NCBI RefSeq assembly: GCF_035083965.1
Contig: NC_089729.1
Location: 1,622,001-1,686,000 of the forward strand
Direction: 5' to 3'
Source of the DNA: Branchiostoma lanceolatum
Taxonomy: Eukaryota; Chordata; Leptocardii; Amphioxiformes; Branchiostomatidae
Length of the DNA: 64,000 nt
Shown here piece after piece: positions 8,561-41,796 of this stretch. A model generated the notes under the pieces. The model did not search any database. It had not been told where the DNA came from and saw only the letters and a list, made by a program, of their open reading frames with translations. The position numbers and the translations under genes were made by a program. Position 1 is the stretch's first letter, and the number at the start of each line of letters is the position of its first letter.

Positions 8561-8632
8561 TAGCATGTTCGGTGTTACAGACGTGTCGCATTTCAGGGTA
8601 ATATTCGGAAACTAAACTGTAGCATATCTGAG

Positions 8633-17545: not shown

Positions 17546-17559
17546 GGGTCTCATTGTCA

Positions 17560-18370
17560 CAAAACAGATTCTGAAGTCATTCGATTAATTATTTGATGCA
17601 TTTTGGCAGCTTTATGGCAGCTTAGCCTTTCAGGTATGGAAAAGTATCATGTAAGTTTTGTAGCCATCAAAACTTTCAAAAGTAAACAACTGTCATGATG
17701 GCAAAAATAACCAATGAGAAAGGCTGTAACAAGTGTGTCACTTCTAATACACTTTGACCTTAAACCAGAGACGCTACGGCCATGGTTTAAGCTGATAGCA
17801 GTCAGGGGAACAGTTTGCACAGTTCAGAATCTTTAGTTTGAGAAAAGGTAAGCTGTCTACATCTGACATCAACTGACAACTAGGTGACTGTGTCAAACTA
17901 CAACAAAAAATCATTTATAAGGTGTTTCAGTGTCAAGACAGACTTTTGTTTGTGACCAACCAAGTGTTTAAGTTACACTTCCTGCCTGGTGTACAGGTGT
18001 TTCGTTTGATCAGAGTCTCCCAAATAGAACTTTTGCTGTAAACAGTAAAGGTAGGTAAAAGGTAAACTTAAGGTACATGAAGTTCCATAGCCTTATTGAG
18101 TACCAGTATGGGCAGTAGGTTGTTATCCACTGTGCCTATCTCCTTCCACCGCCTTTACCTTCCCAACCAAAGTCATGAAGTCAGGTACCCAATTTTATAC
18201 AACGGTGGAGAGAGGATTGTTGTGTAAAGTGCCTTTCCAAAAAGGGCACAAGATCGGTGACATGACAGGATTCAAACCATTGTGTAAAAAAAATAAGAAT
18301 CTAATTTTTTTTTTCAGAGCAATTAGAAAAAAAACATCAATTTGTAATCCTGCCATGGAAGAGTAAGCAA
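17560..18370. other. Intergenic region with SINE-like remnant
   Basis: No gene seen until the ATG at 18372. About 18130-18290 has GGGCACAAGATCGGTGACATGACAGGATT-type sequence (given here in part), shared with about 59097-59135. The promoter of the gene starting at 18372 should lie here, but no TATA box or CpG block stands out. Confidence 0.4.
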
Positions 18371-18371
18371 C

Positions 18372-21300
18372 ATGTCTACACAAGGTGAGATACCTACATA
18401 TAACTCTGAGATACTTCAATAGCTAACGTTTGTTTGGGGTTTTATTTCAATTTGGATACGTGGGTTGATTGTTGTGGGTAAGAGCACTAAGGATAAGGAG
18501 ACATACTATCACAGAGCGCCAAATGATAGTCTCACATAAAAATCAATGCCTATAATTACAATATCATCACAATCATGTTTACTTCATAATGATTGTAGAG
18601 TTTGATAAACGAAATGAAAGGGGATGGTGCCTTGATATTGAATGGTATGTGTTTAATCAATAAATGACACATTCATTATTTTGCAGGTGTTGAAAACTAT
18701 TTCATCTTCATAAAGAACAGAGTAAGCACAGACTGGAAGGACCTGGCTTGGTGTCTTGGGTTTAGAACACCAGACATCAACAACATCGCTGGCAAACCTG
18801 GGGATGACAAGTCCCACTGCATGGAGCTGTTGCAGGAATGGCACAAGCGCAAGGGAAAGTCTGCCACTATACATGTGCTGATGGAGGCCCTGAAAGATGC
18901 AGAGCTACAACATGTTGTGGACAGTCTAAAGGACAAATATCCAGGTACGAACCTTAAATGTTTTATTATTATAATTGTAAAAACCTCTTGCTACAAAAAA
19001 GGACTTGCACTTGATGAGGAGTTCTGGGGCTTCCCCATCAATGTGCAAGCACGTCTAACCCCCAGATGATGGGGAACAAAAGACGTTAAATGGGTAGAGA
19101 GATTATCAAAAGAAACTCTAACAGACCGAAAGAAATTCTTCGATTCCTTACTAATGTTGTACAATTTCTCAACCCCATGACTAGTATAGGATAGCTGATT
19201 TACCCACAATCCGATATTGAGGGGAGCACAATGTTAAGTCCCAGGATAGGGCAATAGTATATAATTGTTTATCAAGACATAACTTCATGAACTGTATAAC
19301 AGTAACTGTTGTCTTTATACAAGTTGTCTACCCACTGAGAGTGTCATGTATCTTCAAGTTGGTTGCTGTGGTGGTTTTGTCCACCAAGCTTGACTGTTTT
19401 TAATAGTTTGAAATTGAAAACAATTGTGTTTTTCCTCCATAACAGAGTTGAATGAAAAGCCAATGCCTCCAGTGACCAGCCAAATACAAAGGAGGAGAAA
19501 AAGACCTACAGGTAAATTTCAAAGCTAAGTTTGGAATTTACAAAATAATGGAACATCAATTTTTCAAAGCCTTTAGTTACTTTTCAACTTACCCAAGAAA
19601 TAAGTATCTGATTCATCAAAATAATGGACGTTACCCAAAGATTACTGGACAACTTGAATGTACAAATTTTGTGCAATTATTTTTCAGCTTTTTGAGTACT
19701 GCTGATAAACTCATTGACAACATTGATATACATAAAATGAATGAAAAGACATGCAAAAAAACCCATCACATTTGCATGCTTGTTTGGGTAAAGGATTAGT
19801 TAATTACTGTTTGATGTAATATTGTCACTGACAGTGATTATAGTAGATCATTTTTATGTCTGTTGTAGATCATTTTTACAAATTGTAATGTACACTGTAG
19901 ATCATTTTTACATTGCACGGAATGGCCTCGGACCCTGACGTATCCGGACGGGATCTGGAAGCTAAGATTAGATGAAGAATCCGAATGTATACGGCCCGGG
20001 GCCTTATTGCAGATGTAACTGCTTTAACCTGCGAAGTTGAGAAGTATTACATTTCCTTTGGGGCAGGTTGGGGGACCTCCACATCAAGGTGTGCCAGGAG
20101 ATCGATGTAACAAAACAAGCAAATCTGATTTTTTCCGTACCGTTTTTTTTTACCAGTAGTAGTTATACTGTAGTAGTAGTATCCAGTATTAGATTATACT
20201 GCTGCGGGGTTCCCTGACGCAGGGGTAGGCAGTATAGTCGGCCAGTCTTCACACAGCGCCTCCAAGCGGCTCTGTCCAGCGGGTCCACGTTGGTGAGGCC
20301 ACACTCTGTAATGTCCAGCAAGAAATACCAGTTTTGAACCGGTACACAGTACCGGTACCCACCCCTAGTAAGTACCATTCGGCCCTGGATCCGTTCTGAT
20401 TCTTTTGGATCTTAGTTCCGGATCCTGTCCGGATATGTCAGGATCGGAGACCAATCATGCAGTGCAATGTAGTCACTGACACAACCCTATAGCTTAATAA
20501 GCTGACGTGAAATGTATTACTAATTTAAAATAAATCAGTTTGCAGAATAATGATGAAGTGAATACACTACCAAAAATGCTGTTTCTTATTTTTCTTGTTT
20601 TCTTATTTTTTCTTATTGAGAGAAAGATTTTCTTCCATAAAGAATTTCAAGAAAATCAAGAAATCTTACGCAAAACCTTTGTACGTTAAATCTTACATTA
20701 AGAGTTTTATTCTTGTTTTTCTTAGGTGAAGAGAGGATTTCTAGTATGATATTTTATCAGCAAGAATATTCTAGAAATTCTAGTCAATCTTTCTTCCTTA
20801 TTCTTCACACAATATTTGCTTCTTGTTTGGTGAAATGGAGTATTTTACAGAATCTACTCTTAAGATTTTTATTCTTGCCATACATGAATTTTTCTTTAGA
20901 CTTTCATTTCACTAGGAAAACATTCTTGACATTTCTTGTTTTCTTGATTTAGGAAGTCTGAGGAATATGATTCTTGCTATTCTTAGTATATCTAAGATGT
21001 AAGGATTTTCTTGACCAAATACAGTTAAGAAAAATGAGAAAATCAAGAAACTGTAAAACAAGTAATTCCCAAGTGTTTTTCTGTTCGAATTCCTTTTCCA
21101 CAAAGTTAAAGAAAGATGTTTCCTGCTTTTCTGTGTTATCTAAAAATGAAAGTTCGAATTTGCATGATTTCCTTTCTTTTCTTAACATTGTAAAGCTCAA
21201 GAAGATAATTATTGTTTTTCTTGTAATGAGAAAGTAAATTATGCTAATTTAATACTCCCATCATCCTTTGCTGTAAAGAGAGTTTGAATGTGGACCGTTG

Positions 21301-24300
21301 AGTTTGGGCTCCAGCTGTATTTGCCTGATGTGCGGTTTAGATCTTACAATAATAGGGAAAGATGTGGCTTGTTTCGTGAGGACACTTTTTGGTATCATGT
21401 GGGACTCACTACACAGCGTAGATGACTTGTTTTAAGTTCCAAAATGCTTCCTCAGGCCAACACCATCAACAGATTACTCCAGGTATGTTATAGCCTGTCT
21501 TGCATGAAAATAACTTATTTCCCAAGTAGATACTCTTTGAGTTTTGTGTTTGTGGTTGCATGATACAGCCAACCAGTAATTGCAGAGCATGTACGTTTAG
21601 TGCAGTTATACCTAAAAGGTACTAAAAAAGTTGAGGTATATCATTTTCAAGCAAATGCACAAGCCCCCCCTCCCCCATGCATGTATATGGGGGAGGGGGG
21701 CGATATAGGAAAATGACAGTCACTAACTCTTTGTGTGTTTTTCTAGGCTTAGAAACCTTTGTTGTGTTTGTGGTTGCATGATACAGCCAACCAGTAATTG
21801 CAGAACATGTACGTTAAGTGCAGTAATACCTACAAGGTACTAAAAAAGTATAAGTATAACATTTTCAAGCAAATGCACAAGCCCCCATCCCCATGCATGT
21901 ATAAGGGGGAGGGGGGCGATGTAGGAATATGACAGTCATCGTCATCTTTTTTTTGTATTTTTCTAGAATTAGAAACCTGTTGGACCAAAGAAGATGCCTC
22001 CGTCTCAAGTTTGGAAAATCTTTCAACAATTACAAGTCATTGATTATAAGAAGGACAGCTACAACACTGCAGAACTGACAGTTTTAGAAGGACAATTAGT
22101 TATTTGTATGAGCACAGAGAAAATGTGCTTTTATCACAGCATCAAATGTGAAACATTTATGGAAACAATTGTATTGCAAACTGGTTGATCTTTGCAATCC
22201 TTGGTTAAGAATGGGCATTAGAAAGAAAAATCCCAAACTGTGTATTAAACAATTAGATCAATGATAATAAATATGATTGGAACATGTTTAAATTATATTA
22301 TCATTGATTTATTAAATGGTATTCTTGATTCAAGACCTCCATCTTGATTCAAGAAACTGTTTCTAGGTTTAAGGAATTCATTCTTGAGGACAGAAAGGTA
22401 TTCCTACAACAAGAACCTCACTCTTAGTGCAAGAAACTCATTCTAGGTGTAATAAATTCATTCTTGAGGTCAGAAAGGTATTCCTACAACAAGAACCTCA
22501 CTCTTAGTGCAAGAAACTCATTCTAGGTGTAATAAATTCATTCTTGAGGACAGAAAGGTATTCCTATTACAAGAACCTCACTCTCAGTGGAGGAAACTCA
22601 TTCTAGATGTAAGAAATTCATTCTTGAGGTCAGAAAGGTATTCCTATTTCAAGAACCTCGCTCTTAGTGGAAGAAACTCATTCTAGGTGTAAGAAATTCA
22701 TTCTTGAGGTCAGAAAGGTATTCCTATTTCAAGAACCTCGCGCTTAGTGGAAGAAACTCATTCTAGATGTAAGAAATTCATTCTTGAGGACAGAAGGTAT
22801 TCCTATTTCAAGAACCTCGCTCTCAGTGGAAGAAACTCATTCTAGATGTAAGAAATTCATTCTTGAGGACAGAAAGGTATTCCTATTTCAAGAACCTCAC
22901 TCTTAGTGCAAGAAACTCATTCTAGGTGTAAGAAATTTATTCTTGAGGACAGAAGAAATAAGGAAATGTCAGTGAGGACGTAACAAATATAAACTTTTTC
23001 TTAGAATATTTTCCTCTGAAATTTATATATCTTAGATAAAAATTCTGTGCCAAAGAAGAATCATAACAACAAGAAAATTTCTTTCGGGGTTTTAGTCACA
23101 TATGTGTGAGAAAAAACAACTTGGTCAGAGAAAAATATTCTAAGAAAAAGTTTATATTCCTTACGTCCTCACTGACATTTCCTTATTCGTTCTTATTCTT
23201 GCACACAGAATAATTTTCTTTCTGGAAGATAACTTTTCTTCAACAAAGAAAAAACAAGAAAAAACGAGAATGGCATTTTTTGTAGTGTAGACAACTGATT
23301 GTTATATTTTTTGTTGTTAAAAGAAATTTACTTTCAACATTAATTCGATTTGCACATCTCTGTTGCCAGGAAAGCCACCTATATTGCGTATAGTGGTACG
23401 GATAGTCGATCAGGTAAAGCCCACGGTCAAAACACCAGAGGATGCAAGGCAATGGGCATCAGCCAAAGAGACACTGTTCAAAACTCATATTACCAAAGTT
23501 GACACTCGCGATATTCTGGAACAAATAGAGTCTGAAATAAAAACCATCCCTGATCTGGTTAAAGTGGTGGAAACAGTTAAGAAACTGGAGAGTCTACCAG
23601 GCATAGTGGTTGCTGATGTAACACCCGGCAGCCTTGTGTTCCACCTGAGATGTACCGACCGGGAGGGGCTAGGCAAACTTTGGTTCATGTACAAGTGTGG
23701 AGAACTGGACAACCTGATGCACAGCTGTTTGGCAAGTGAGGAAACCTTACGGCAGCTGTCTGCTGAGAGTATCATCGTGAAGGCTACCATCGATGTAGAG
23801 GACTTTAAAAGGGCCCTGGTCTACATCCTCAACATACCTGCTGCAAAAGGTAACAATGTTTTTTTAAATCAGTCATACCATATACCAATTATACCATTAA
23901 ATTCCCTAGACATTTAATTCACAATCAACATGTAAGAATCCATTTTAACTTCTGATCAACAGACTTAGACAATACAGATCTTGCATGCACATCCCTCAGA
24001 CAATGACTCATCAGTATGTGGGATCCAAAGAAAGACAGCCAAGAAGAAAATGGACAGTGTAGAAATCAAAGCCATTGCCATTTAAGATTCTTCACAGTAG
24101 AACATGTACTATTATGATAAATATAGTATTGTAATAGTTAAACTGATGAGCTACATTAGATATAAATTTTCATTTGCAAACTCATGCCCGAAGGCATTAA
24201 CTTATTAGTACTTAAATTATCTATTCCAGGACTGGACCGTACCAATTCTGCAGACAGCCTGCTGGCCCTACCACCCCCCAGCAAGCCTGTGGACCATTCT

Positions 24301-27300
24301 GACATGACAGGCCTTGACCTGGCAGGGGTCAGCAGAGAAAACCAGTCTTGTACTGATGATGTCTTCTTCAGGCAAGTACAAGAGGCCGTGCGAAGTTGTA
24401 GGGAGGAATCAGAACAACAGGTGAGGCAGAAGGAAGTTCAACTTGAGACAATACGCAGACAGGTGCGAACAGCCAGAGAGGAAACAGAAGCCATGGTGAG
24501 CAGTTTGACACGGGAGATAACCAGGCTTAGAGAGAAGGATGAAACAGCACAGAAAATTCTCCTGGAGCAAAAGGTGGAAATGCAGCAGTTACTGGAGACT
24601 AACAAAACCATAGAAGCTGAAATTGAGGAACTGAAAGCTGAAAACACAAAATTATCCAACCAAGTAGCAGAAATTCCAGACCTTCGTGATGAAGTGAGAC
24701 AGTTTAGAGAGAAAGATGAAACATCACAGAAGGTTCTGTCAGAACTGAGGCAAGAGAAACAGCTGCTACAATACACTAACAAAACCAGAGATGCCAGAAT
24801 TGAAGAACTGATAATTGAAAGCAAAACACTGTCCAACCAAGTGACAGAACAGCAAGTCCAACTCCTAACACTAAAAGAGAAAGAAAAAACATCACAGAAG
24901 GATCTGATAGAACAGAGGCCAGGAACACAGTCTGTGTTGGGCATGGCAGCAGCTCAAACAGAGGACCCACAAACTGCCAAGCATACAGTGGGCAAAAGAG
25001 TAGAATTAAGTCTGGAGGAAATGCAGTCTGGACTAGAAGACAAAGGTACAATGTACTTCAAATTTGCAGTTAATGATCTGCCCATGGGTGTTCACTATTA
25101 TAATCAAGAGTCAAGACGTGTAATTATCTACCATTTGTGTAATTTGACCCGGTTCAGATTCAATTAAACAAAGTTACAGTAACACTTATAATAAACAGTT
25201 CCGTGGAACAATCTTAGGAATGAATCTTAGTTTTCAAACTAATGTCATGATTCTGCAAATTCTTGTCAATGATCATGTGTATTACTAACAGTAACTGTCA
25301 TTATCAATTTTTAACTTATTAATAAAAGCATGTTCATTTGCAGATGTCAAGAGGTATTTCACCTTCATTAAGAACAAGGTGAGCTCAGACTGGAAGGACC
25401 TGGCTTGGTGTCTTGGGTTTGAGACACTCGCCATAGAGGACATCCAGTCCCAACACCGGACTGATAAGTCCCGCTGTATGGAGCTGTTGCAACAATGGTA
25501 CAAGCGAGAGGGAAACGCTGCCACCATACATGTGCTGATGGAAGCCCTGAAAGAAGCAGAGCTACAACAAGTTGTGGACAGTCTGAAGGATGAATATCCT
25601 GGTATGAGCATTAAATCTAAATAATAAATATATAAATAATCATTATCAGATTCTGAAGAAAGACTGGAACATAATTCTTCAGTACGACAGTGTCTATGTG
25701 CCAATGATGATGTAGAAAGTGCCTGTTGCTGAGCAACCTGACTAATGTGTTCACTGATGTGTAACCATTACAACAAATGCAACTTTATTTGCTTTACAAT
25801 GATCTTCACACAGTATGATATACTCTGAAAAGCTTTGTTAAGTGTTAGACCTTAAACAGCTTATTACATGAGGACCTGTTAAGCTTATCAGAATGTTTAT
25901 GTCTCCAAGATTCCCTTGTCACTGTGGCTGACAGCTGTGTCAATGTCTATAAGAAACCATAGTCAGCAGCAAATCAATACTGGGTATCCACAAAATTAAT
26001 CTTTAAAAATTTGTATGGCCATAAAATCTATTAATTACTAAATGTCACTTTTTCAACAGAGTTGAATGAAAAACCGAAATCAACAGGAATCAAGCCCCAG
26101 CATCTTATTGCATCGACTAGTACTGTGGGCAGCCCCAACCCATTAGTGAGGACGTCTAGATCTGAAGGTAAATTTTGCTGTTACTGTTTGATTGTTTGAG
26201 CTGGTAAATGGCCTAAAAATATTGTTGCTTCATGCTTGCTATTAAGCTTGGTACCACTTGCTTACCTACATGTAGCTACAATAAGCGAGTGGTAACATCG
26301 CCATCATGAAAATTGGTTTATCGATATATTAACAAGAAACTTATAGTCAGAGGCTGAAATAGATAGCTTTGAATGTACAGTAACTGTATATTTGGTAAAT
26401 CCAAGTAATGATGATAAATCTTTTTGTTTTTTTGTGACATGAGCATAATTCTAGTCTAATGATTAATTAGACCTGGTCCAGAACAATCAATTACACAAAT
26501 TTACTTTTACATGTGACATGTGAATGAATAATTTCATGTGCAAATACAGAAGATTCGAGTAGTAGTTAGTAAGTTAGAGTAAAATTGAGAAATATTAACT
26601 AATATATAATTATCTCCATGAAAAAAAAGACTTTTTCATGGGGATATTGTTTTGCATGGCGTTTGTGTGTCTGTGTTATCCTGTGTGTATGTATGTGTCA
26701 CCGGACGCTTAAAATCACCATAACTGAAGAACGTGAGGATGGATTGTAATGATATTTGGTATGTGGGTAGGTGCTGGGAGGAGAAAGGTCAAGGTCAATT
26801 TTGGGCCCCCTGGTATGTGTCACTGGAACTGCAATGGCGTATTTGTAAAAATCTTCCAAGGAGAATAACTGAAGAAAGGAACGACAGATTTTCATGTTAT
26901 TTGGTACGCATGTGGGTTGGACAGAGATGTACAAACTGAAGTGCTGATTATGCAAATTTGGACAATTTGCATATTAAGTAATGATGAATATCTACTTCTC
27001 CATTGTGGGTATGTGCTTTGAGGTCGCACCTGTTGAAACTCAGTCTTTTTTGATACCAAGGACAAGTATTCCCTAAGTCCCAACAGCTGGTGGTTCTTCT
27101 GCCCAAAACCAAGTATAGATGTGGGGTGATAGCTCTAAATGGTATTGCAGAAAGTTATACAGTATGTACCTTATGTTTCATAGTACAGATGTTATTACCT
27201 TCGCTAAGAAGGTTATGCATAGGGTAGCGTTTGTTTGTATGTATGTATGTATGTAATAAATACACCTGACAATAAATTATGCCAATGAGGACATAATCTA

Positions 27301-30300: not shown

Positions 30301-33300
30301 AATTCGTGTACTGGTTAGGAGATGATCGGCGCATCTTCGGCGCATGTTCGGCGCCAAAGATAGGCGTGGCCCAGAAACTGGTCAGAATGCTCCCGAACTA
30401 CCGCCGACCTGAGTCGGCTAGCGTTCGGGAGCCATGTTCGGCTATGTGTAACCTAGGCTTTAGTAACGGGTTAGCAAGGAGTCTTGGTAACGGGTGGCCC
30501 AGCCACGCGCTGTCACTACAGCACGGCACCTCCTCCTCATACTCGTCACCAGTTGCGCAATGCGATGCTGTGGGATAGCGTCCCATTCCTCCACCAGCAG
30601 TCGTCCTAGGTCAGCTAGCGTTGTTCTCTCGGTCACTCTTGCACGGACAGCTTGCCCAAGCTGATCCCATAGATGTTCGATGGGGTCCAGGTCCTGCACC
30701 TGCATGCTGGAGATGGTCGGCGATGATCCCTGCCCGGTGTGGGTGGGCGCTATCATCTTGCAGCAAGGCATTCGGCCCCATGTTATGAAGGAAAGGGGTG
30801 GCGACCGGATCAAGTACTGTGTCACGATATCTTTCTGCATTGAGGGTTCCTGGTACAATGACATGTCTTGTCTTTCCCCTGGAGGTAATGCCTCCCCATA
30901 CCATGACGCTGACACCACCAAATGCTGTGGTGTAAACAATTGGATCTTCGATGTGCTAAAAATAACCTTGGATGTTCTGTGTGCTAGAAATAACCTTGGA
31001 TGGTCTGTGTTCTAAAAATAACCTTAGAACCTGAGGAAACAATATATTGAATCATCATCCGCGCCCATACCAATAGGATGTCACAGCGCGCGTATGACAC
31101 CAACAGGGAATTTTGGGCACTTTTTCTCTGTGACCCACTCACGTTATTAGTCCCGGTATACTTGTTCCGTGGGTTTTCAATCACAATAAGTTTGTTATCA
31201 TAGAAAGGGAATCACACAAGCTTTATAATGATATATAATGCATCAAAATCGGTCAAAAAGCAACGGAGATATGATCTACCAAAGTTAAGTTTCCGAACTT
31301 TTTGTGCGTAGTTTACTATGATCATAACAGCAAAAATTGATACAGTTTCAGCTTCAGAACTCAGCCATTGCTTAGATGCCAGTTTAAAAATACTACTTTT
31401 ACAAGACAGTGTATTGTGAGCTTTTATGCAAAAGACAACATCATGATCATTATAGAACTTTGAACAAATATGTCTTTTGATCTCATTGAAACCAGGTGAA
31501 TGGAGAGGACTTTCGTAACACCACGTATGACTACGCCATCAACGTTCTGCAGCAGACACTGTCCCGCGTTCGTCTGATCGTGTTCCGGGACGAGAACCAG
31601 TACAAGGAGGAGGACCTGTACGATGTCTTCACGGTGGAGCTGGAGAAACGCATCGGGAAGGCGCTCGGCCTCAGCATTTTGGAAAGGAGGTGAGACCGAA
31701 TAGTTAATGATTGATGTACTGTTTTTTGTGTTATTTTTTTATTTTATCTTGAATTCTTTGTTTTAACTTCAAGTTGGTTTTCCAAAAATAAATACAACAA
31801 AAAGAAAAAAAAGGTACACTTTCAGCTTCACTCCAGTGTACAATAATTATTATGGTCAATACGTATCAGCCATTCGCAGAGCTTTTGAGTCTTAAGTAAG
31901 AATAAACTGCTCTTCGACAGACGCCCACTCTATAATCTGGTCTCACATCCGTGAATAGTTTCATCAGGTCGGTAAGTCACTGAATTTCATTTCATTTCAT
32001 TTCTTTCTTTAACCAGAAGACACACTCAGGTCTCTTGACCTGTCTTTCAGGCTCCCTGGATACAAATACAATGCACAAGACATACATGTAATACACAATG
32101 ATCACAATTATATACAATCTAAAAATTTTGTATCAGTCCTAATTCCATTCCTTAAGTCCATTTCTAAAGGTCGATACGGCAGCGAGTTTTCTTTGTTCTG
32201 TGGGGAGTTTATTCCAAAGTTCAGGACCCGTGTACTTTAGACTGCTCTTGAATGACTGTAAAAAGACTAAAAAGACTCTTTTTACACAACCAAGAGATTT
32301 ATTCCACAGACGTTTCGGTGACCATCTGTCGCCTTCTACAAGGCAATTCTGACTGGTTCACATAGAAATGCAGCACAGGTGTCGCTGATGAAGGTGACAG
32401 ATCAAACGTTGGTGGAATAAATCTTTTGGTTGTGCACAAAGAGTCTTTTTATTCAGATGCCCACTCTGTTTAAGCTCATCATGGTTTTGGGTAAAAAATA
32501 ATAAAAAAAAAAAATTAACGGTTCAAATATTCAATTATAGTCAAAAGCATCTACATCTACATTCTATACATTACTCGGCAAGACCGCGCGAGGGGCATAA
32601 CGCCAAGGGAATGTCAGGGTCACGCCCAGCTGCAGCAGGTGGTGGTGGACTAGACTTACATTGTACCAAGCTTTATTTAGTATCTCTCATACATGTTTAT
32701 TACTAATTAATAACTGAATGACTTATTAGGCCACATTAAGTAAATTTTATGGATGACATCCTCGCAGACTCCAAAACTAATGAGATAGGGGGAAAAAAAA
32801 CAAGGCGGGCAAAAAATACAAGATTGCTATATTTTCAAATTTTGAGATCATAAATCTTGTTGAACAAGAAATGAGGCAAGAAAATATGATATCATGACCA
32901 ACAGGTCTTTTCTTCCTGTATTCAACCAATGAGGTTTCATATAAAATGATATAAAACCTGCTTGATTCAACAGTAAACATTGGTTGGTTTATTGGTTTAT
33001 TGCAATACCCTTTAGTCGAATTACGACTAATCTTCCAGGGTTCCACACAAAAAAAGTATATACAGTGCAAGATTAAAAGGACATATATACAAAGTGATAA
33101 CATATACAAATTGCTAAGTTAAACTTAACTTACGAATGATTGGTGACAAACTGGTAGATGGCCTTCTTAAAGTGATATGGGACTGTCAATGATTTGATGT
33201 TAGATGGTAATGAATTCCAAAGATTGATGGCTCGGTAGAGAAAGGTTCGCTTTTGACTGTTAGTTTTCGGTTTAGGTAGTTTGAAACTGTGGGAGCTGGA

Positions 33301-36300
33301 TAATTTAGCAGAGTATGTGTGGGTAGAATTGACAGGGACAATGGAACTGTAAATGTTTTGAGGCTCATGACTGACAAGTATTCTAAAAAAAGTATTTAAA
33401 GTACTGATGGCGAACCTTTCTCTTACCGTGGGCCAGCCTAGATCTGTATGCATTTGTACAACAGATGTGTCCAGAGCACATTTCAAAAGCATTCTACAGG
33501 CTCTGTTCTGTACCACTTGGAGCCTACGAGTGTTCAAGTCCGACATGTTGGCAAGGACTGGTAGGCAGTACTGCGCCACAGATAGGACTTAGTGCACACA
33601 TAACTACCTTAAAAACATCATGCGTCATGGCCCATGCGTGCCGTCTCAGAAGGGCAATGTTCCTAGATTGTTTAGCAATAGTATGATTCACATGCAAATT
33701 ACATGTAAGTGATTGAGTGATGTGCAGCCCAAGCAACACCGTTTCTTTCACCTGTACAATACCCTCTGTTCCAATTACTAAGTCTAAAGAGGTTGAAGGC
33801 AGAAGGGCAAGTTTTTGGGGTGAACCGAGGAGCATGCACTTGGTCTTCAAAATGTTCATGACAAGTTTATTGCTCTTTACCCATTCTGATATCTTATTAA
33901 GGTCAGGCTGTAAAGCAGCAGTTATCTCAGATAACGACCTAGCAGCTTTGTACATCGATGTGTCATCTGCGTACATTTCAGTTGTACTATTTAAGACTGA
34001 CATGTCCTTGTTGATGTGTATACATCTCAATAGACTAACTACAACAAATGCTGAAAAGAGCTTGTTGTACCATCATCTGAAGCAACTATACACTGGGTAT
34101 TCATATGTGATGAAACACCTTGTGTATACAGCTCAATTAACTAGAACCAAGGACATTATATAATGTCCTTGCTAGAATTTAATGCAGAAAACAGCTTGTT
34201 ATACCATCATGGGCATGAACTACACTGTGTATTCATATGCAATGAAACGCCTTTAGACTGACAACATTAAGCTGTCATTGAAGATGTGTATACAGCTTAA
34301 TTAGCTAGAACAAATACAGCTTCAAGTTGTCACATCATGTGCAGGAACTACACTGGGTATTCATACGTATGCAATGAAACACCTTAGACTGTCAACATTA
34401 AACTGTCATTGAAGATGTGTATACAGCTCAATTAAGTAGCCAATTTTTGGCATGTTGACCACCGTCGGAGGGCAATGAAATTTCTTCAAAATCAGGCGAG
34501 CGCGCTGATGTCATCCATAAAAATTACTTGCTGTGGCCTAACCGTCATTGTCCTTTTCAGGAATGGAGTGTTCATCTCGGACCTAATGAAGGGCGGGGTG
34601 GCGGAACAAGATGGCCGCCTGGTGAAGGGCGACCAGATCCTGAGTGTGAATGGGGAGGACATGAGGAGTGCCACACTAGACAACGTCGCAGCTGTGATCA
34701 AAGAGGTGATCAATGCTGTGATCAACAACATCATTTCCAATACACCATGAGGAGGTCACCTGCCTTCCCTGGGGCACGTTGGTCTGAAAATAGGGTTCTC
34801 CCGCACCCGTTGTTGCATTGGTGTGTAACTTGGCATATTATTTGCTAGGTTGGGCCTGATGATGCGCAATGTTTTTTTTTTTACACCATAACCCCTTTTA
34901 TCGTCAATGTAATATCATTATTGCAACCCTATATTGATGCACATGTGGAACAGCCTTCCCATTCATCACACGCTTTATTTCGGTCTGATATCAGGCAATG
35001 TGGTAAACAGATATAGGGTATTTCGTTTGCTACTTGCTGTGATCATTGATTTGAATCAATTTAACTTGATTCAAAATGATTCACTGTTACATTGCAAAAT
35101 AGACAACGTGCATCACCACACACAATCTAGCAAACAATATGCCAAGTTAAATACCAATGCAGCAACAGAATCGTGAGTTCTAGCCATAAACATATGCGGG
35201 AGAACCCTCTTTTCAGACCAATTGTGCCCCAGGGATGGCAGGTGACCTCCTCATGCATGCCTGATGATGTATATTGGAAATGATGTTGTTTGCATGTTCA
35301 CAGATAGAACTTGCAATAACGTTGCCGCATTGGTGTGTAATTTGGCAAAATTTCTGCTAGGTTAAATGTGATGATGCACGTTTTTGTTGTTGTTGATTAC
35401 ACGGTGACCCTAACTGCTTTTATCATCAATATCATTATTGCACCCCTATACTGACGCGCATGTGGAACAACCCTCCCATTCAACGCACGCATCATTTTGG
35501 TCTGATTTCGGGTGTTGTCAGTGAATCAAAAATCTTGTTAAACTAAAGTTAATAGTTAGAAACATCGTCTATCGCTGATCATGTGCACGGCCTTGCCATG
35601 TGGTTTGGGTGCCATTTTGAAAAGTTACAGCCCAAATTCTGCCTTCAATTTGTCAGACATATCACAGGCCCTAAACGGGCGAAATGTGATCTTCACTGTG
35701 GACTGACTCTACTGGCTAATTATTCCTTTTTCTGCCCAATTCTACGATCATACGCCCGTAAGAGGGCCTGGTGGAGGCTAGTTGATGGTTATGTTTTGTA
35801 TACGTTAGTCCGTCAACTGTTGAGTCCTGGCGGAGAGGTGTATTGAAAATAGAGTTGTGCAAACATTTGCAGCTATTATTACCCACGATTCTGCTGCTGC
35901 AAAGGCATGTTACTTCAAGTTGGTAAATCGTCTGCTAGGTTGCGTGTGAAGATGCACGTTGTCTATTTCAAAACAATAACAACATATGATGTGAGTTTGC
36001 GTGAATAAAGAAGGTGCCTGATATTATCAGTTTGTACAATATAATAGGTGAAATATATGTTGGCTTTGTTGGAGTATGGTGAGTTACATGTAACGTGTGC
36101 GTACGAGAAAAACTATGCCAACAATTACAAACCCACGGCCTCCGTAACATCAATGCTCCAAGATCTCGGATGGCAGCCACTTTCCCATCATCGCAAAACA
36201 GCCAGGCTGACTACCATGTTCAAAATCCTGCACAACACCATCTCTGTCCCCCACACCTCTAAACTTGTCCCAGCAACTCGATGCTCCCGCCGCACTAATC

Positions 36301-39300
36301 ATGCATGCTTTTAAGCTTTAGAACATCACGTGTAAGACCGACTACTATGTACAGGCTCTCGTTCTTCCTTCGCACCATCAAAGAGTGGAATGATCGGATG
36401 AACTTGAGCCTAGTGTGGCGGAGGCGGAGTCCCTCTCCCAGTTCAAAACTGAGCTGGGACGGGCTTCGCTGCATTGACCTGCCGCCCGTCTTTGTACATA
36501 ATGTAAATACTAACTTCACTAAAACTTCACTTGTCCAGTAGTTTGCACATGTCCTCGTCTACCCCCCTTTTTTACCCCTTGTTTGCACCTGTTTCTAAAT
36601 TAGTGCAGCTGCTAGAAATCCACTGAACAGCGGGCTTAGCAGTAAACGAAGATGATGATGATGAAATCATCACCTTAGCCACAATGTACACACAATAAAT
36701 ACTTCACAGAGAATTGTGTCCTATGGACTCTTGTTTCATGTTAGTTTTAACATCTCTGTCATTCTGTAACTGTAACAGTAAAATGCTTCTGGAATTTTTA
36801 AATCAAAATGATAATGAAATGGAGAGAAGAGATCAATACATTTTTTTGTATCTAAGTTTCTAGTCCTGAATCTTAGCATATGGATTTCACCCACTGGCAG
36901 GTATCAACATACGGTACATGTTCACAATGTACATTCAAGATAATTTCATCTGTCAAATGCGACAGTATAATGACATTGCATTATTTCGCTTCTTGCTCAT
37001 ATCATTTATCATCGTTAAATTTTTTTTCTGACAAATGGTGTAGGCTAACCACAATGTTTTTTTCCAGACTGTCCAAGGCACGGTAGTCTTGACTGTAAGG
37101 CGGCTGAAGGCTAGCTTGCAGGCCTCCCGGAGGACTTTCATGGCCAGTTCCAGCAGCCTGTCCGACCCCATGGACAAGGCTGGATCCACAGGCAGCATGG
37201 ACAGGGCTGGCATCATCTCAGGGCCCAGGAGTGTGGCTGGGGGTAGGCTATTACTAGTATATGATTTTATATTTCTAATCATTTTTTTATTTAATGATTT
37301 ACATTGTACATGTTCATAGCTCTTCTTCCTGGAGTCTTTGAATGAAAGCTCATCTGTGTTGGTAGAGTATATAATTGTAAAGTTTTGAGCTTTGATCCAA
37401 CGCAAAGAAGGAACTGACCATGAATTTTGGTCGGAACTCCAACCTTCCTCTGATGTTTGATTCACTTCGTTCAGGCGTTCACTGATTCCTGGAGTCTTCT
37501 CTTGGTAGAAATATCAACTTGACAACTGGCGTAAATTCAACAATTGTTCTCACTCGAAGAGACGGAGTCTGAATTGGCACTTGACATCATTTTAATCAGT
37601 TCGCAAGTGATGGTACAGTTCAATGCATCATGATCACCGACGTCTGTAGTCTGTATAGAGAGTCACAGTTGTGTGGAACTCGCGTCGGTACTGGAGTGAC
37701 GGTAGTGATAGTTCGGTGTAGAGACTTTCGTATGAAGGATACGGTAGCCCAAAGTGGCCGCTGATGATTCTGGTGGTCTGGTATTGGACAGATTCCACAA
37801 TCCTTTGATCGCGTGTGGTAAGACCAGACCAGACAACGTCTGCATACTCGAGGTTTGGCCTTACGATTGTCATGTATAGTCTGAGGAGTAGATCCTTCGG
37901 TATCTTCTTCCTCAGAGCACATAGCAAACCAGAAGATCGTCTAGCCTTTGCAGAGATGATGTCGATATGGTTTGACCAGGAGAGGGTATTTGGGAGAGTA
38001 ACGCCAAGGTGTTTATGGCTGGTAACAACTTGCAATACAGTTCCACCTAGGGTCACGTGAGGAATCGGTCGTGGAATGGCGCGTGTCGTGATGAACATAG
38101 CTTTACACTTGTCTATGTTGGCTTCGAGTTTCCATTGAGACAGCCAGGTAGACACAGAGCTCAGGTCTCTGTTCAGTGATGCAACTATATGTTGGATAGA
38201 GTGATGGGAGGAGGTTTGATCGTATGAGTACGATTGTGAAGCTTGCCAATTCGGTGTATAAAATTAATGCGCGTGACCTTTACAGCTACCGGCCTGGGTG
38301 AGTCGGCTGCAGTTCCGTATGACCCCGCATGACCCCATATCAAACTTACCGTCAAAATGCTAAAAACCATAACTTTTTCTTGTTTTCAGTTATTTTGTAG
38401 ATTTTACAAACATATTTGTTTGTCATGTTTCTGAAATGCACCCTACTATATTTTAATCGGCGTTGATGCCAGTCAGTCTGTAGAAATCCCCATAGGCCAA
38501 AAACTGTTCTGCTACCTTACTAAGTAATATGTATTTAAAAACAAGTGAGAACTTGACTTTGGGGTATATTTAGCAAAGTATAGTTCAGGCTTTTGAATGT
38601 CAAGTTTAGCCGTCCTTTAATCTCAAGATAATCAATCCCCAAAGATAACAACGATTTTCCTTCTCTCTTCAGCCGCAGACTCAGCTGACATCCCCACGGA
38701 GGAGATCAGGATGGTGGAGATGTACAAGGGGCCGCAGGACTCCCTGGGGATGAGCATCACTGGGGGGGTGGGGAACGTCCCCATCTCCATTTGCAAGGTG
38801 GAGGCCAACGGAATGGCAGCACAGACACAGAAACTCAGGGTGAGAGGTCATTTTTGGATCAATGTAACCACACTCTTGGTATAACAGTCTTATGTCTAGG
38901 GTTTTCTAGAAAAGTCTGCAAGGGGGAGCATTGCGAGGGAGCAGAACGACCAAGCAGAGGGATGGTTTCCCCTTCCACAGTGTGGTGTTTTAGAGAATTA
39001 TGAGTAAAATGGAGCATTCTTTGACTTCCTGAGGGGCAAAATTACTCTCAAACAGATCACAGATGAAGACTCATGTGACCTAGTAGCACCCCTGGTCAAT
39101 CAGAATTTTATGCTTGTCAGAGAACCCGGGGTGGGGGCATATGGTCAGGGCAGGAGGGCGCTTGGCCCCTGTTCCCCTCCTTCGATTAACGTCTGTTTAA
39201 CACAGTCAACAGCTTTCAAACAGTACAGGTGTACAATGTTGGTAGGTTATGTTGCATGAAACAACTTGTCACCCGTAAGCCAGAAACTAAATCCAAGACC

Positions 39301-41796
39301 TAATTCAGAGCAATCTTGAGAAAAGGTTCCTACTAACAGTAACTGTCAAACCTGGTTTCAACAACCTTTTAAGGGACTGAGGAAAAATACTTGGTGAGGG
39401 GGACATATGGTAGCCTCTACCAGGCTCCCGTCCTATTGTTGGGAAAATAGTAGAAATCAGCCGAGGTACTCCGCAGGGTAGGTCCGCTATACAGTAAAGT
39501 TCCATTTCGATGGACGGTCCATCTAAATGGAACTTAACTGTTTTTTGGACCTAAAGCGTGGCAGCATGGACACAGAAACTCAGGGTGATACGTCATCTTT
39601 GTATCAGGTTCTATGTCTGATTGGTCAACCAAATATGTAGCTTACTTTCGTGTAACTAATAGAAGCTAATTGTAGACATATGACAGCAGCTTTATAACAC
39701 CAAAAGACCTGTCTAACCTACATGTAAGCTATCATCTAACTCCAGTTTTTGGTTAAAGCTGTCTGTTGAAGAGGGGAGTGAGTGAGTAAAGTGAGTGTGA
39801 GTGAGTGAGTAAATGAGTGAGTAAATGTGTATATGCTGTATATGAGTGAGACTCTCCTAGTGTGTTTCATAATATTTGATAATAACATTTTGCATTCAAT
39901 TCATTAGTCAGGTTTCTTCCAACTACATTTTTGTAGAAGAGACAGCATCTCTCTTATTCATGTGATGGTGACTTAACTAACTGACCTTGCCCTTTACCTC
40001 CCAGGTTGGAGACCGTATCCTGAGCATTAATGGACAGACCCTGGAGGGGGTGACTCACGCACAGGCCGTCAACATGCTGATGCAGGCCACAGGCAGGGTC
40101 ATGTTAGAGGTACGAACTTAATTACTTCAACAGTACACCATCATCATCATGTTGCATGCTTTTAACAAGTTCGAGTGTAGACAAATTTTAGCTTCCAGTA
40201 TTGCCAAAGGGTTGATCTTAATACTGCACTGATCCTTAAGTTAAAGCTTTCATGCTGCTTTTGTGCAGCATTGATGGGACTGCCACGGTAATTTCATGGT
40301 ATTAAAAGCAGCTTGACTGCTATGATGACCTTGTTAATTGTCAACAATACTGTAGCTGCAACTTAACTACTAGCATGGCATTGATTGTCTTATATTATAT
40401 TCAGTACTATCAGTATCACACAATAAATTGACAAATCTCAACATTTCATAGTACAGAGTTACGTACTATCAAAGTGAACAATGGAACAGTTGTGAAGTAT
40501 GGTGGCCTGTATTTGAAGAAACAGCAGCAATGATAATGTTGAAAAACTTTGTTGAAAGTTTCATCTGATTCAGAAGAAATGCCATTTTCTATCAAAGCTG
40601 AAAATACATAGCCCATACATATTATATACTAATTACTAGTCTTATACTTATTTTGTGCTTTTGTGCTTGTATACTGTTTGTGTATACATGTACCTGTAGG
40701 ATATCCCACCCTTAGAGAGCTGCCATTGTTAAACAAAACAGAAAGTTGATAAATTTTCACCAATATGTCAATGACATGATGTTGTGATGTATAATTTTGG
40801 AAATTAAAAGGAACCTATCAAATTTGCATATTTTGTTTCTTAGGTTTCCCAGGGTGATGAGTTGGCAAATATGGCGGGAGGAGACACCGTCCAGAGTGTC
40901 GCTAGCGTCATGGCAACCAGCGCTGAATCATCATCACAACTGCACTTCAATGATGACCTTGGGGGGTGAGGACCCGTCCTAATTGTTTCAATCTGTTTTG
41001 AATCACGTAAACTGTGTAATGTATTATTTCAATCTATACTTAATATACAGTAACAACATGTACATCTAGTTTAACTGTTTGTTATTACAACATGTTATGC
41101 AAGGGACTTCTTGTTTTGAGGTTTTCTCTTACTCTAATAAATATGTTTTGCTCGTTCTTAACATGCATGTTTATTACGTAACATGTGCAAATGTACGTGG
41201 AATTCTATGCAGTAACTTCAATTATGCATGACACACTATGGCATTTTATCAGATACTTATAGCATGCTTTCAGCGTGTACTTGCCGTCCTTTTTTTCATC
41301 ATACCCCGACCATGCATGTATTCGTCATGCACACATTTTCATACTCCTCAATCTGAACAGAAGCATACATGTATATTAACATTTCATTTTTCAATACATT
41401 CCAGCCCTTCCTAGTACATGTCAATAGTTGGAACCTCTTATGTGCTATGTTTTCAATACAAAATTGCTGCCCTTCAGCGATTGATTATATGGCTATATTA
41501 TGGTTCCTTATACATTCCATTCCAGCCCGATCCAGTATAAAACCATAGAGTTGGAGCGGGGTCCCGAAGGACTGGGCTTCAGTATCAGCGGGGGTCACGG
41601 CAGTCCGCAGGGCGACCTCCCGATCTACGTCAATACCATGTTCGCCAAGGGCGTGGCCGCGGAAGACGGGCGTCTCAAATGCGGGGACCAGATTGTGGCA
41701 GTGAACAGCGAGCCCCTTGAAGGAGTGACCCATGAGGAGGCTGTGTCCATCTTTCACAAGTCCAAGGGGAAGATTGTGTTGACGGTCCTGACTTAA
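18372..41796 (+). CDS. Death domain-TRADD-N-coiled coil-Death-4xPDZ fusion protein, 1,139 aa
   Basis: Sixteen exons: 18372-18384, 18687-18944, 19446-19511, 23370-23849, 24230-25045, 25344-25601, 26060-26167, 28090-28247, 28581-28664, 31496-31689, 34561-34705, 37068-37242, 38673-38839, 40005-40109, 40844-40965 and 41526-41796. The sum is 3,420 nt with every phase matched, ending VLT-stop. Order: Death (5-90), linker, TRADD-N-like (113-270), coiled coil (about 310-520), Death (545-630), linker, PDZ (about 690-779, 790-872, 929-1012, 1053-1139). The PDZs are those of MUPP1/PATJ positions 8 onward ([51 protein letters not shown]). Known MUPP1/PATJ proteins are apical-junction scaffolds with an N-terminal L27 domain, absent here. 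Inference: a scaffold linking death-fold signalling to polarity or junction partners. The alternative is two adjacent genes, but the phase-1 join GAAG|TGATAG works cleanly. Confidence 0.75.
18687..18944 (+). CDS. Death domain 1 exon
   Basis: 258-nt symmetrical (phase 1-1) exon encoding residues 5-90. It shows the six-helix Death pattern: [72 protein letters not shown]. The W-K-D-LAW and [10 protein letters not shown] blocks are the usual Death-domain anchors. It is joined to a 13-nt start exon (ATGTCTACACAAG|GTGAGA). It is about 75% identical by eye to the Death exon at 25344-25601 and has the same length. Confidence 0.8.
19512..19909. other. Intron, nothing recognised
   Basis: AT-rich intron start after the ELNEKP linker exon (19446-19511). 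GTAGATCATTTTTA is repeated three times at about 19842-19910; otherwise featureless. Confidence 0.35.
19910..20470. mobile_element. TIR element, about 560 bp, with LINE fragment inside
   Basis: Inverted arms of about 90 bp: ACATTGCACGGAATGG ... GACGTATCCGGACGGGATCT at 19910-20002 and the diverged reverse complement at 20378-20470. No clear target duplication. The interior at 20163-20330 (minus strand) encodes [18 protein letters not shown] and [20 protein letters not shown], the typical C-terminal tail of a LINE reverse transcriptase, so the element either captured a retroposon scrap or was hit by one. Confidence 0.6.
22321..22955. repeat. 80-bp minisatellite, eight copies
   Basis: TTCTTGAGG recurs at 22381, 22461, 22541, 22621, 22701, 22781, 22860 and 22940, a period of 80 bp (79 twice). 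Each unit carries CAGAAAGGTATTCCTA, CAAGAACCTC, CTTAGTG and AAGAAACTCATTCTAG. Neighbouring units differ by a few substitutions, which indicates local homogenisation. Confidence 0.9.
22955..23190. repeat. Inverted repeat of about 54 bp
   Basis: AAGGAAATGTCAGTGAGGAC ... AACTTTTTCTTAGAATATTT at about 22960-23012 is matched in reverse complement at about 23130-23187. It lies at the 3' edge of the minisatellite and may mark a separate nested MITE of about 230 bp. Confidence 0.6.
23370..23849 (+). CDS. TRADD-N-like domain exon
   Basis: 480-nt phase 1-1 exon, residues 113-272. It starts [20 protein letters not shown]. The second half matches the TRADD-like N-terminal pattern: [73 protein letters not shown]. 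Such modules accompany Death domains in amphioxus and other invertebrate adaptors. The first half ([20 protein letters not shown]) is helical and unassigned. Family assignment is from remembered motifs only. Confidence 0.6.
24230..25045 (+). CDS. Coiled-coil exon
   Basis: 816-nt phase 1-1 exon, residues 273-544. A proline-rich stretch ([15 protein letters not shown]) precedes long E/K/Q heptads from about [20 protein letters not shown] to [15 protein letters not shown]. Internal repeats are visible: [32 protein letters not shown] and [16 protein letters not shown], spaced about 55 residues apart, so the coil grew by duplication. It likely drives dimerisation. Confidence 0.75.
25344..25601 (+). 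CDS. Death domain 2 exon
   Basis: 258-nt phase 1-1 exon, residues 545-630, paralogous to the exon at 18687-18944 ([40 protein letters not shown]). Its following linker exon at 26060-26167 also starts ELNEKP like the linker after Death 1. The duplicated unit was therefore Death exon plus linker exon. Confidence 0.8.
26168..28089. repeat. Intron with dispersed repeats
   Basis: About 26620-26990 carries a repeated phrase type (CATAACTGAAGAACGTGAGG ... GATATTTGGTATGTGGGTAG and GAATAACTGAAGAAAGGAAC ... TTATTTGGTACGCATGTGGG), i.e. two diverged copies about 140 bp apart. About 27230-27480 has a TATG microsatellite and three ATTATGC(T/C)AATGAGG units. The rest is featureless. Confidence 0.5.
28090..31592 (+). 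CDS. PDZ domain 1 (exons 28090-28247, 28581-28664, 31496-31592)
   Basis: Residues about 690-779 of the fusion protein. [20 protein letters not shown] carries the GLGL carboxylate-binding loop; then [36 protein letters not shown], and a closing VRLIVFRDE. Introns split the domain after GGSDTPL and after GDQILE, positions used in MUPP1/PATJ genes as I recall them. The last exon continues past 31592 into PDZ 2. Confidence 0.85.
28248..28331 (+). promoter_or_regulatory. Duplicated, in-frame alternative 5' splice site
   Basis: The 3' end of the PDZ 1 exon and its donor (GGGGGATCGGACACACCATTG|GTCAGT in parts) recur 84 bp downstream as GGGGGATCAGACACACTACT then G|GTCAGTTTG. The 84 nt between the two donors is 28 codons with no stop. 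Use of the second donor would insert 28 residues and repeat GGSDT at the PDZ beta-strand junction. Confidence 0.6.
29086..29180 (+). pseudogene. Decayed duplicate of the PDZ 1 third exon
   Basis: Reads [18 protein letters not shown] then a stop, matching [18 protein letters not shown] at 31496 and continuing at DNA level (AGATGACTTTGCTTGTATGG versus AGACACTGTCCCGCGTTCGT). It has no good acceptor and an in-frame TAG, so it is a relic of an exon duplication in the same intron. Confidence 0.7.
29587..30460. mobile_element. Nested MITE, about 874 bp, with TCGGCTG arrays
   Basis: TIRs start AAGCCTAGGTTACACATAGC then CGAACATGG, with TA on both sides. Subterminal regions are packed with GTTCGGCTG/GTCGGCTG units (at least ten within 29670-29850, more at 30300-30440), a pattern expected of transposase-binding sites. 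No ORF. Inserted in the Tc1 element, so it is younger than that element. Confidence 0.75.
30480..30960 (-). pseudogene. Tc1 transposase C-terminal remnant
   Basis: Two minus-strand frames together show [20 protein letters not shown] sequence, the second catalytic aspartate block [13 protein letters not shown], then after a frameshift the glutamate block [16 protein letters not shown] and the tail [14 protein letters not shown]. The first catalytic aspartate and DNA-binding half are missing, so it cannot encode an active enzyme. Confidence 0.85.
31496..37110 (+). CDS. PDZ domain 2 (exons 31593-31689, 34561-34705, 37068-37110)
   Basis: Residues about 790-874. [20 protein letters not shown] has ALGL in the binding loop in place of GLGL/GLGF. 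It continues [40 protein letters not shown] and [14 protein letters not shown]. The exon at 31496 is shared with the end of PDZ 1. The exon at 34561 is hemmed in by a MITE ending 22 bp before it and a foldback element starting 18 bp after it. Confidence 0.85.
31990..32240 (-). mobile_element. LINE 3' end fragment
   Basis: On the minus strand the frame [20 protein letters not shown] then GLKEWN-stop is the typical end of a CR1/L2-like reverse transcriptase ORF. It is followed by an AT-rich tail ending in ATTTC repeats near 31990. Confidence 0.6.
32262..32457. mobile_element. Foldback element with degenerate hammerhead motifs
   Basis: Inverted arms of about 50 bp (AAAAAGACTCTTTTTACACA ... CACAGACGTTTCGG at about 32265-32318, reverse complement at about 32402-32455). 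The right part carries CTGATGA (32385-32391) followed by GGTGACAGATC and AAACGTT, with part of stem II lost. The left arm on the minus strand has GGCGACAGATGGTCACC then GAAACGTC, an intact stem II and GAAAC, but TTGTAGA instead of CTGATGA. It is related in layout to the element at 14771-15056. Confidence 0.5.
32729..34538. mobile_element. Second Harbinger-type MITE copy, split by a LINE
   Basis: Ends GGCCACATTAAGTAAATTTT...GATGACATCC and its reverse complement ending at 34538 (TTA left, TAA right). The left end matches the reverse-complemented right end of the MITE at 14191-14587 for about 85 bp and the right end matches its left end for about 90 bp, so it is the same family inserted in the opposite orientation. 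A LINE fragment (about 33000-34030) occupies the middle. About 34045-34440 holds three copies of a 110-150-bp repeat (AACTACACTG(G/T)GTATTCATA ... GTGTATACAGCT(C/T)AATTA). Its right end stops 22 bp before the PDZ 2 exon. Confidence 0.65.
33000..34030 (-). mobile_element. LINE reverse transcriptase fragment, 5'-truncated
   Basis: Minus-strand frames give the catalytic [19 protein letters not shown] block, HLHVNH-type thumb sequence and, after a frameshift near 33560, the C-terminus starting [20 protein letters not shown] and ending [20 protein letters not shown]. It is a CR1/Jockey-like non-LTR element, dead through frameshift and truncation. The 3' end is near 33000. Confidence 0.8.
34723..35291. 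repeat. Foldback element with arms of about 190 bp
   Basis: AACAACATCATTTCCAATA, then GAGGAGGTCACCTGCC and GGGTTCTCCCGCA at 34723-34812 recur in reverse complement at 35195-35291. The inner module (GCATTGGTGTGTAACTTGGC ... TTTGCTAGGTTG ... ATGATGC) at about 34817-34875 recurs inverted at 35095-35160 and directly at about 35325-35385 and 35890-35965. It starts 18 bp downstream of the PDZ 2 exon donor. Confidence 0.65.
35310..36060. repeat. Direct copies of the foldback module
   Basis: About 35316-35525 duplicates 34812-35010 (both run from GCATTGGTGTGTAA to TTTCGGTCTGAT/TTTTGGTCTGAT and GTGTTGTCA/GCAATGTGG). A third, shorter copy is at about 35885-35975. No coding exon lies between 34706 and 37067. 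Confidence 0.55.
36100..36665 (+). mobile_element. LINE 3' fragment with GATGAT tail
   Basis: Plus-strand frames read [40 protein letters not shown] and, after a stop and frameshift, [16 protein letters not shown], the typical C-terminal part of an L2/CR1-like reverse transcriptase ORF. It ends in a (GAT)n tail at about 36648-36665. Inactive. Confidence 0.75.
37068..37242 (+). CDS. PDZ 2 end and serine-rich linker exon
   Basis: Exon encoding [14 protein letters not shown] (last strand of PDZ 2) and a low-complexity linker ([38 protein letters not shown]). The linker holds many S/T/G residues and two DxAG repeats. Donor GGG|GTAGGC is weak but the phase fits the next exon (G+CC). Confidence 0.75.
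37620..38226 (-). mobile_element. LINE reverse transcriptase fragment
   Basis: Minus strand: [78 protein letters not shown], typical thumb and connection region of a Jockey/L2-type reverse transcriptase. The catalytic YADD block is missing, so it is 5'-truncated. Confidence 0.8.
38673..40109 (+). CDS. PDZ domain 3 (exons 38673-38839, 40005-40109)
   Basis: Residues about 929-1012. [20 protein letters not shown] carries SLGM as its loop, then [40 protein letters not shown] and [13 protein letters not shown]. The intron between QKLR and VGDR matches the intron of PDZ 1 in placement. Equivalent to the penultimate PDZ of MUPP1/PATJ. Confidence 0.85.
38840..40004. repeat. Intron with exon relic and GAGT microsatellite
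   Basis: Contains the exon-end relic at 39549-39610 and an AGTGAGTGAGTAAA microsatellite at about 39775-39830. No other element is evident. Confidence 0.5.
39549..39610 (+). pseudogene. Duplicated 3' end of the PDZ 3 first exon
   Basis: GTGGCAGCATGGACACAGAA then ACTCAGGGTGATACGTCAT matches exon end 38811-38839 plus the first intron bases (ATGGCAGCACAGACACAGAA, ACTCAGG|GTGAGAGGTCAT). The donor GT is kept. It is a partial exon duplication about 740 bp downstream. Confidence 0.65.
40110..41525. other. Introns flanking exon 40844-40965, nothing recognised
   Basis: Apart from the linker exon 40844-40965 ([14 protein letters not shown] ... LHFNDDLGG, acidic end before PDZ 4), the two introns show AT-rich sequence without recognisable elements. 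Confidence 0.4.
41526..41796 (+). CDS. PDZ domain 4, terminal exon
   Basis: Single exon holding the whole last [63 protein letters not shown] and [13 protein letters not shown]. It has the canonical GLGF loop. This is the most conserved part of the gene and corresponds to the final PDZ of MUPP1/PATJ; the protein ends with the last beta strand. Confidence 0.9.

Follow-up and report, generated by a model that had tools for sequence, protein, structure and literature searches.

The window analysed here was a 64,000-nt stretch of the Branchiostoma lanceolatum genome (contig NC_089729.1, positions 1,622,001 to 1,686,000), and its central feature was a plus-strand gene model spanning ~23.4 kb (18372..41796). 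When this model was rebuilt by script, its 16 exons joined into 3,420 nt encoding 1,139 aa, in which the only stop was the terminal one, and 15/15 of its introns were GT–AG; this reproduced the total given in the first-pass annotation, which had claimed 16 exons, 3,420 nt, and 15 in-phase junctions. A first rebuild had yielded 15 exons and 3,354 nt, and the 66-nt exon 19446–19511 was the top in-phase candidate to fill the space from exon 2 to exon 4. Intron lengths ranged from 298 to 3,858 nt over the whole model and from 333 to 2,871 nt within the PDZ half (exons 8 to 16), with intron 7 (26168..28089, plus strand; 1,922 nt) constituting the disputed junction between the Death half (exons 1 to 7) and the PDZ half (see below). 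The claimed domain set stood for its two Death and four PDZ domains, all of which scored above Pfam cut-offs, while the TRADD-N-like domain proved borderline and the coiled coil was recognized by eye only.

The Death half opened with exon 1 (18372..18384), which carried the predicted start codon (MSTQ) and a phase-1 donor (10.2 bits, leave-one-out), and it continued with exon 2 (Death domain 1; 18687..18944), exon 3 (linker opening ELNEKP; 19446..19511; an in-phase candidate having sequence in common with its sister exon 7), exon 4 (TRADD-N-like domain; 23370..23849), exon 5 (probable coiled coil; 24230..25045), exon 6 (Death domain 2; 25344..25601), and exon 7 (linker ELNEKP, the last exon of this half; 26060..26167), all on the plus strand. 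Two stretches of the spliced protein matched Pfam Death (E 9.4e-28; cut-off 22.6 bits): the one from exon 2 at 55.9 bits (E 4.7e-15) and the one from exon 6 at 61.8 bits (E 7.1e-17). Exon 6 was a duplicate of exon 2: the two exons together with their flanks (18680–18959 and 25337–25616) were 81% alike, their products were identical at 60/85 aa, and dN was 0.176 with dS at 0.455, the difference between non-synonymous and synonymous changes having a Fisher p of 0.0066 (rounded counts). Since dN was lower than dS, selection has maintained at least one of the two Death copies from the time they were duplicated. The linker exons 3 and 7 likewise had 21 nt in common at the acceptor side (95% alike), as well as the donor AGGTAAATTT. 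Because exon 3 is spliced to a coding exon in the model, the like donor of exon 7 pointed to a further coding exon, and the nearest exon of the PDZ half with a phase fitting that donor was exon 8.

Judging from its sequence, exon 4 was a probable TRADD-N domain. It matched Pfam TRADD-like_N at 20.2 bits (E 5.3e-4) when taken alone and at 15.7 bits (E 0.014) within the whole protein, both below the 23.7-bit cut-off. It also contained a Gly–Ser pair (TPGSLVFHL) that, in a low-confidence AlphaFold model computed from exon 4 alone as a single sequence without relatives (mean pLDDT 46.9, pTM 0.36), was predicted to lie between two strands; the accessible text of PMC8195603 places a uS motif, or Gly–Ser-type pair, of TRADD-N proteins where the chain turns from strand 2 to strand 3. 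Single-sequence hhalign of exon 4 to human TRADD gave no signal (3.1 vs. 7.5 for the best of 60 shuffles), and no match better than E 0.59 was obtained for it among PDB sequences. Exon 5 encoded a long charged heptad-like stretch that was read by eye as a probable coiled coil, and its matches in Pfam were all sub-threshold, the best being CALCOCO1 (15.8 bits).

The PDZ half contained four stretches above the curated Pfam PDZ cut-off in the spliced protein (whole-protein E 7.6e-67), distributed over nine plus-strand exons: exon 8 (linker and first part of the PDZ10-like domain; 28090..28247), exon 9 (middle of the PDZ10-like domain; 28581..28664), exon 10 (end of the PDZ10-like and start of the PDZ11-like domain; 31496..31689), exon 11 (PDZ11-like core; 34561..34705), exon 12 (end of the PDZ11-like domain and a Ser-rich linker; 37068..37242), exon 13 (first part of the PDZ12-like domain; 38673..38839), exon 14 (second part of the PDZ12-like domain; 40005..40109), exon 15 (linker; 40844..40965), and exon 16 (PDZ13-like domain and stop codon; 41526..41796). 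Exons 8 and 9 were placed by the rebuilt model and a PDZ HMM search (see below), exons 10, 11, 13, 14, and 16 by both of these and alignment to MPDZ, and exons 12 and 15 by the rebuilt model.

The four window PDZ domains paired one to one and in order with human MPDZ10 to MPDZ13 at 58–75% identity: 63/84 residues for the PDZ10-like domain, 49/84 for the PDZ11-like domain (and 50/85 with PATJ9), 50/84 for the PDZ12-like domain, and 61/86 for the PDZ13-like domain. Each of them aligned best with its own counterpart when six human MPDZ/PATJ domains were compared, and the linker ahead of the first window PDZ matched PATJ. An LNX origin of the tail, to which the first-pass annotation had given no thought, was rejected on the scores against solved domains for PDZ11 (LNX2 52.7 bits vs. 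MPDZ 87.0) and PDZ12 (LNX 39.0 bits vs. MPDZ 88.5); for PDZ10 and PDZ13 the matches listed offered no solved LNX domain to compare, no LNX chain being present among the best 60 of the 82 matches of the PDZ10-like domain to solved structures. On this in-order pairing, and with LNX scoring far lower wherever it was listed, the tail was assigned by sequence as MUPP1/PATJ-type, in agreement with the origin first proposed for it. The His at the start of PDZ helix B is linked to class I ligands. It was kept in PDZ12 and PDZ13, while in PDZ10 the His was replaced by Tyr and in PDZ11 a Gln by Leu; the specificity of PDZ10 and PDZ11 has probably been changed or lost.

The PDZ HMM search was applied, in three HMM builds, to 2,801 six-frame fragments of at least 15 aa. 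The seven PDZ-core exons (of the nine exons in the PDZ half) were the top 7 of the 2,801 fragments in each build, and all seven were recovered at E 1.3e-4 or better by the build lacking the window PDZ10 and PATJ8 sequences, so the PDZ pattern was not due to chance. Exons 12 and 15, which had little or no PDZ core, were missed by this search; exon 8 alone gave no match in Pfam, though it carried PDZ core. The fragment at rank 8 (29072–29131) had E 0.002–0.024, compared with 0.02 for the best reversed decoy in one build, and the fragments after it had E 0.5 or worse. Except for one decayed fragment, no further PDZ exon was detected by HMM anywhere in the window, and the 28 kb upstream of the tail yielded none in the same search that found 7/9 of the tail exons. 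Neither L27 (at E up to 0.05) nor RING was found by Pfam in the plus-strand frames of 1–18802, 18950–23402, and 25602–28102, a scan from which intron-split domains could escape; RING was also missing from the spliced protein. As to whether the PDZ exons are tied to L27 or other PDZ exons elsewhere, one of the outcomes named beforehand as fatal to the proposed fusion, no upstream PDZ exon was detected in the window and no L27 in the stretches scanned.

The PDZ half also included relics of its own exons. A decayed duplicate of the beginning of exon 10 (29078..29166, plus strand), to which the weak rank-8 fragment of the HMM search belonged, contained a stop codon and had no AG acceptor; its DNA gave a local alignment score of 74 with exon 10, whereas 200 shuffles reached no more than 24. 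It kept His where the live exon 10 has Tyr. The end of exon 8 likewise had a decayed copy, at 28310–28338 in a PDZ-half intron. From their sequences, these two relics suggest an old local exon duplication.

The junction from exon 7 (26167) to exon 8 (28090) was assessed with a splice-site model trained on 14 sites of this one gene. Donor 26167 scored 7.0 bits, which placed it in the top 2.6% of the 3,980 GTs on the plus strand, and acceptor 28090, at 4.2 bits, fell in the top 6.2% of 3,926 AGs; neither was exceptional, and the lowest-scoring accepted sites of the gene had 3.3 bits. The phase agreement at this junction had a 1-in-3 probability of arising by chance. Exon 8 opened in mid-linker with an acceptor and carried an in-frame Met. 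Acceptor 28048 (its AG ending at 28047), located 42 nt upstream of 28090, scored 9.7 bits, and splicing of exon 7 to it would lead to a stop at 28071–28073 and a 674-aa protein without PDZ; read-through of the exon 7 donor would meet a stop 10 codons on, giving a 676-aa protein. GC3 was 327/666 codons (0.49) before the junction and 341/474 (0.72) after it (Fisher p 7e-15), and the intron GC was 0.31–0.37 in introns 1 to 7 and 0.38–0.43 in introns 8 to 13; shifts of this kind are expected of two genes or of a recent join. The 28048 acceptor, the read-through stop, and the GC steps are compatible with two genes, with a join of recent date, or with a single gene that has two forms. The first AATAAA/ATTAAA past the read-through stop was found at 27255, and at the gene's own end none was found before 43585, so poly(A) signals did not separate the one-gene and two-gene models. 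An alternative boundary at exons 5/6 instead of exons 7/8 was considered unlikely, the intron there being only 298 nt.

A single gene able to make the full 1,139-aa protein was the probable arrangement. This was favoured because both halves looked incomplete when taken alone, because their phases matched, and because the exon 7 donor resembled that of sister exon 3; the length of intron 7, which fell inside the intron range of the gene itself, and the presence upstream of unrelated neighbours (a minus-strand FAM220 gene and a Myb_DNA-bind_4 ORF; see below) were counted on the same side. The full explanation, in which one adaptor gene would combine this Death half with the MUPP1/PATJ-type PDZ10–13 and work as proposed below, was given only slightly better than an even chance; the somewhat higher estimate for a single gene also takes in the case of a PDZ product that is minor or regulated.

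The foremost competing explanation was that of two same-strand neighbours: a ~676-aa Death/TRADD-N/coiled-coil/Death protein ending just past 26167 and a small four-PDZ gene, the latter opening either with a first exon, short or non-coding, within the gap or with the exon 8 Met. The GC3 step fell at exactly the exon 7/8 junction, the read-through stop lay 10 codons past donor 26167, several short ATG exons with phase-1 donors (together with one in-frame cassette exon) could be drawn in the gap, and the Met of exon 8 was in frame. On the other hand, exon 7 kept a donor like that of its sister exon 3, exon 8 began in a linker behind a usable acceptor, and the gap measured only 1.9 kb, so that two genes were judged unlikely, while still carrying real weight.

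A further explanation kept one gene and made a Death protein without PDZ its main product: exon 7 would mostly be spliced to 28048, adding EENYQFFNN before the stop, and the PDZ form would be minor or regulated by acceptor choice. The higher score of 28048 (9.7 vs. 4.2 bits) and the confirmed stop spoke for it, but the site model came from 14 sites of one gene, other accepted sites scored as low as 3.3 bits, and the PDZ exons were open throughout, making such a main product improbable. It was more improbable still that the tail would close a complete MUPP1/PATJ gene at its 3′ side, with the exons for L27 and the preceding PDZ domains lying ahead of the window and the Death gene inside one of that gene's introns: the tail was clearly MUPP1/PATJ-like and the sequence before base 1 lay outside the analysed window, but the arrangement would need an intron of >28 kb (PDZ-half introns: 333–2,871 nt) holding the Death gene, the FAM220 gene, and the Myb-domain ORF, and no upstream PDZ exon was detected in the window. 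The joining of two distant loci by an assembly artefact was the least credible of all, for although the window contained a large near-perfect palindrome at 43.9–54.0 kb (a structure that assembly or read errors can create), this lay beyond the last exon, the window had no N run, and no oddities were noticed at 26–28 kb.

Under the preferred one-gene explanation, the protein would have the domain order Death, linker, TRADD-N-like, coiled coil, Death, linker, and PDZ10–13, and its four C-terminal PDZ domains would have been acquired as an exon block via a phase-1 intron from a MUPP1/PATJ-type gene. If the gene is expressed and spliced across intron 7 as predicted, PDZ12 and PDZ13, with their class I His kept, could dock on the C-terminal tails of membrane or junction proteins; the ligand tails of MUPP1 PDZ10–13 in yeast two-hybrid, as given in the accessible part of PMC3162930, include SynGAP, TAPP1, EphA7, and HTR2C among others. 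The coiled coil might gather copies of the adaptor, after which Death-domain partners might be recruited or nucleated by the two Death domains; as TRADD does, the protein may also use its TRADD-N-like domain to bring in a MATH domain of the TRAF type. The output would be NF-κB-like or caspase signalling at a chosen membrane site. Docking through the PDZ tail combined with gathering of Death-domain partners would be the simplest functional reading.

The structure was also compared with known scaffolds. It resembled MUPP1/MPDZ and PATJ/INADL in having four PDZ domains in MPDZ10–13 order, but it had only these four, whereas the mammalian proteins have 10–13 PDZ domains; in the window searched, it lacked L27 and any earlier PDZ, and Death and TRADD-N-like domains stood in front instead. 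CARMA/CARD-MAGUK proteins combine a death-fold domain, a coiled coil, and PDZ in one scaffold, but no CARD, SH3, or GUK was among the Pfam families listed here, and these proteins served as a working analogy only.

Two further groups of proteins were compared. In LNX1/2, PDZ1–4 lie behind a RING and are related to MUPP1 PDZ10–13, with splice positions in common, according to the accessible part of PMC3162930; on that description, LNX1/LNX2 and the present protein are alike in coupling another front end to four PDZ domains related to MUPP1 PDZ10–13. They differ in that no RING was found here in the spliced protein or the stretches scanned and no NPAY in the protein, and in that the window PDZ domains were nearer to MPDZ/PATJ than to LNX domains among the matches listed. 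The second group is that of metazoan Death-like/TRADD-N proteins. Kaur et al. 2021 (PMC8195603) report, in its accessible text, sponge proteins with 1–3 Death-like domains, TRADD-N, and variable tails including PDZ (named for Amphimedon), as well as TRADD-N expansions in Branchiostoma, for which the tails described in that text are WD40 propellers. The present protein is like these in having Death domains, together with a borderline match to TRADD-N, ahead of a differing C-terminal part, but it ends in a block of four MUPP1-type PDZ domains; this very protein may be listed in the tables behind that paper.

The first-pass annotation had announced a new kind of adaptor, which was overstated in view of the sponge Death-like/TRADD-N/PDZ proteins (PMC8195603) and the LNX1/2 relatives of the same four PDZ domains (PMC3162930), as far as the accessible texts of both sources go. 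What would be new is the pairing of a Death/TRADD-N front with a MUPP1 PDZ10–13 tail. No report of such a pairing was found in searches confined to the text of the literature, and PDZ was absent from the accessible portion of the main text of a study of amphioxus domain shuffling (PMC2575513).

Tentatively, and with somewhat less than even confidence, the last four PDZ domains of MUPP1 could be viewed as a cassette acquired more than once: (i) by a RING protein, leading to LNX and (ii) independently by a Death/TRADD-N immune-type protein, giving an adaptor that would place a death-fold platform at junction or membrane tails, with the two acceptors 42 nt apart able to toggle the tail. If real, this would be a polarity-scaffold tail lent to a death-fold adaptor, giving the state of the junction or membrane a direct link to death or inflammatory signalling; in view of the LNX precedent, MUPP1 PDZ10–13 would then be a reusable unit, a proposal testable across animal genomes.

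Several other features were recognized in the window. Upstream of the gene model were a FAM220-family gene (~476–1555, minus strand; Pfam 122.4 bits over two stretches), ORF 12867–13328 (plus strand; Myb_DNA-bind_4, 72.7 bits; perhaps transposon-derived), and 14031–15512 (plus strand), where two fragments joined by hand matched DUF4430 (27.0 bits; cut-off 23.8). Within the PDZ half, 118-nt inverted repeats (86%) at 29233–31320 flanked the minus-strand ORF 30478–30759, which was transposase-like by eye with no confirmation from Pfam, and minus-strand 33524–34072 and 37637–38263, both in introns, gave sub-threshold reverse-transcriptase matches (E 0.007 and 0.023, respectively). Downstream, the palindrome at 43886–54014 had outer arms 99.2% alike over 3,831 nt, of which 3,607 nt were fully complementary, and a spacer whose halves matched in inverted order at 75–90%; it could be a palindrome kept alike by gene conversion, a fold-back element, or a fault of the assembly. 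Tandem arrays were present at 8590–9358 (period ~153 nt) and, in intron 3, at 22255–23034 (period ~80 nt).
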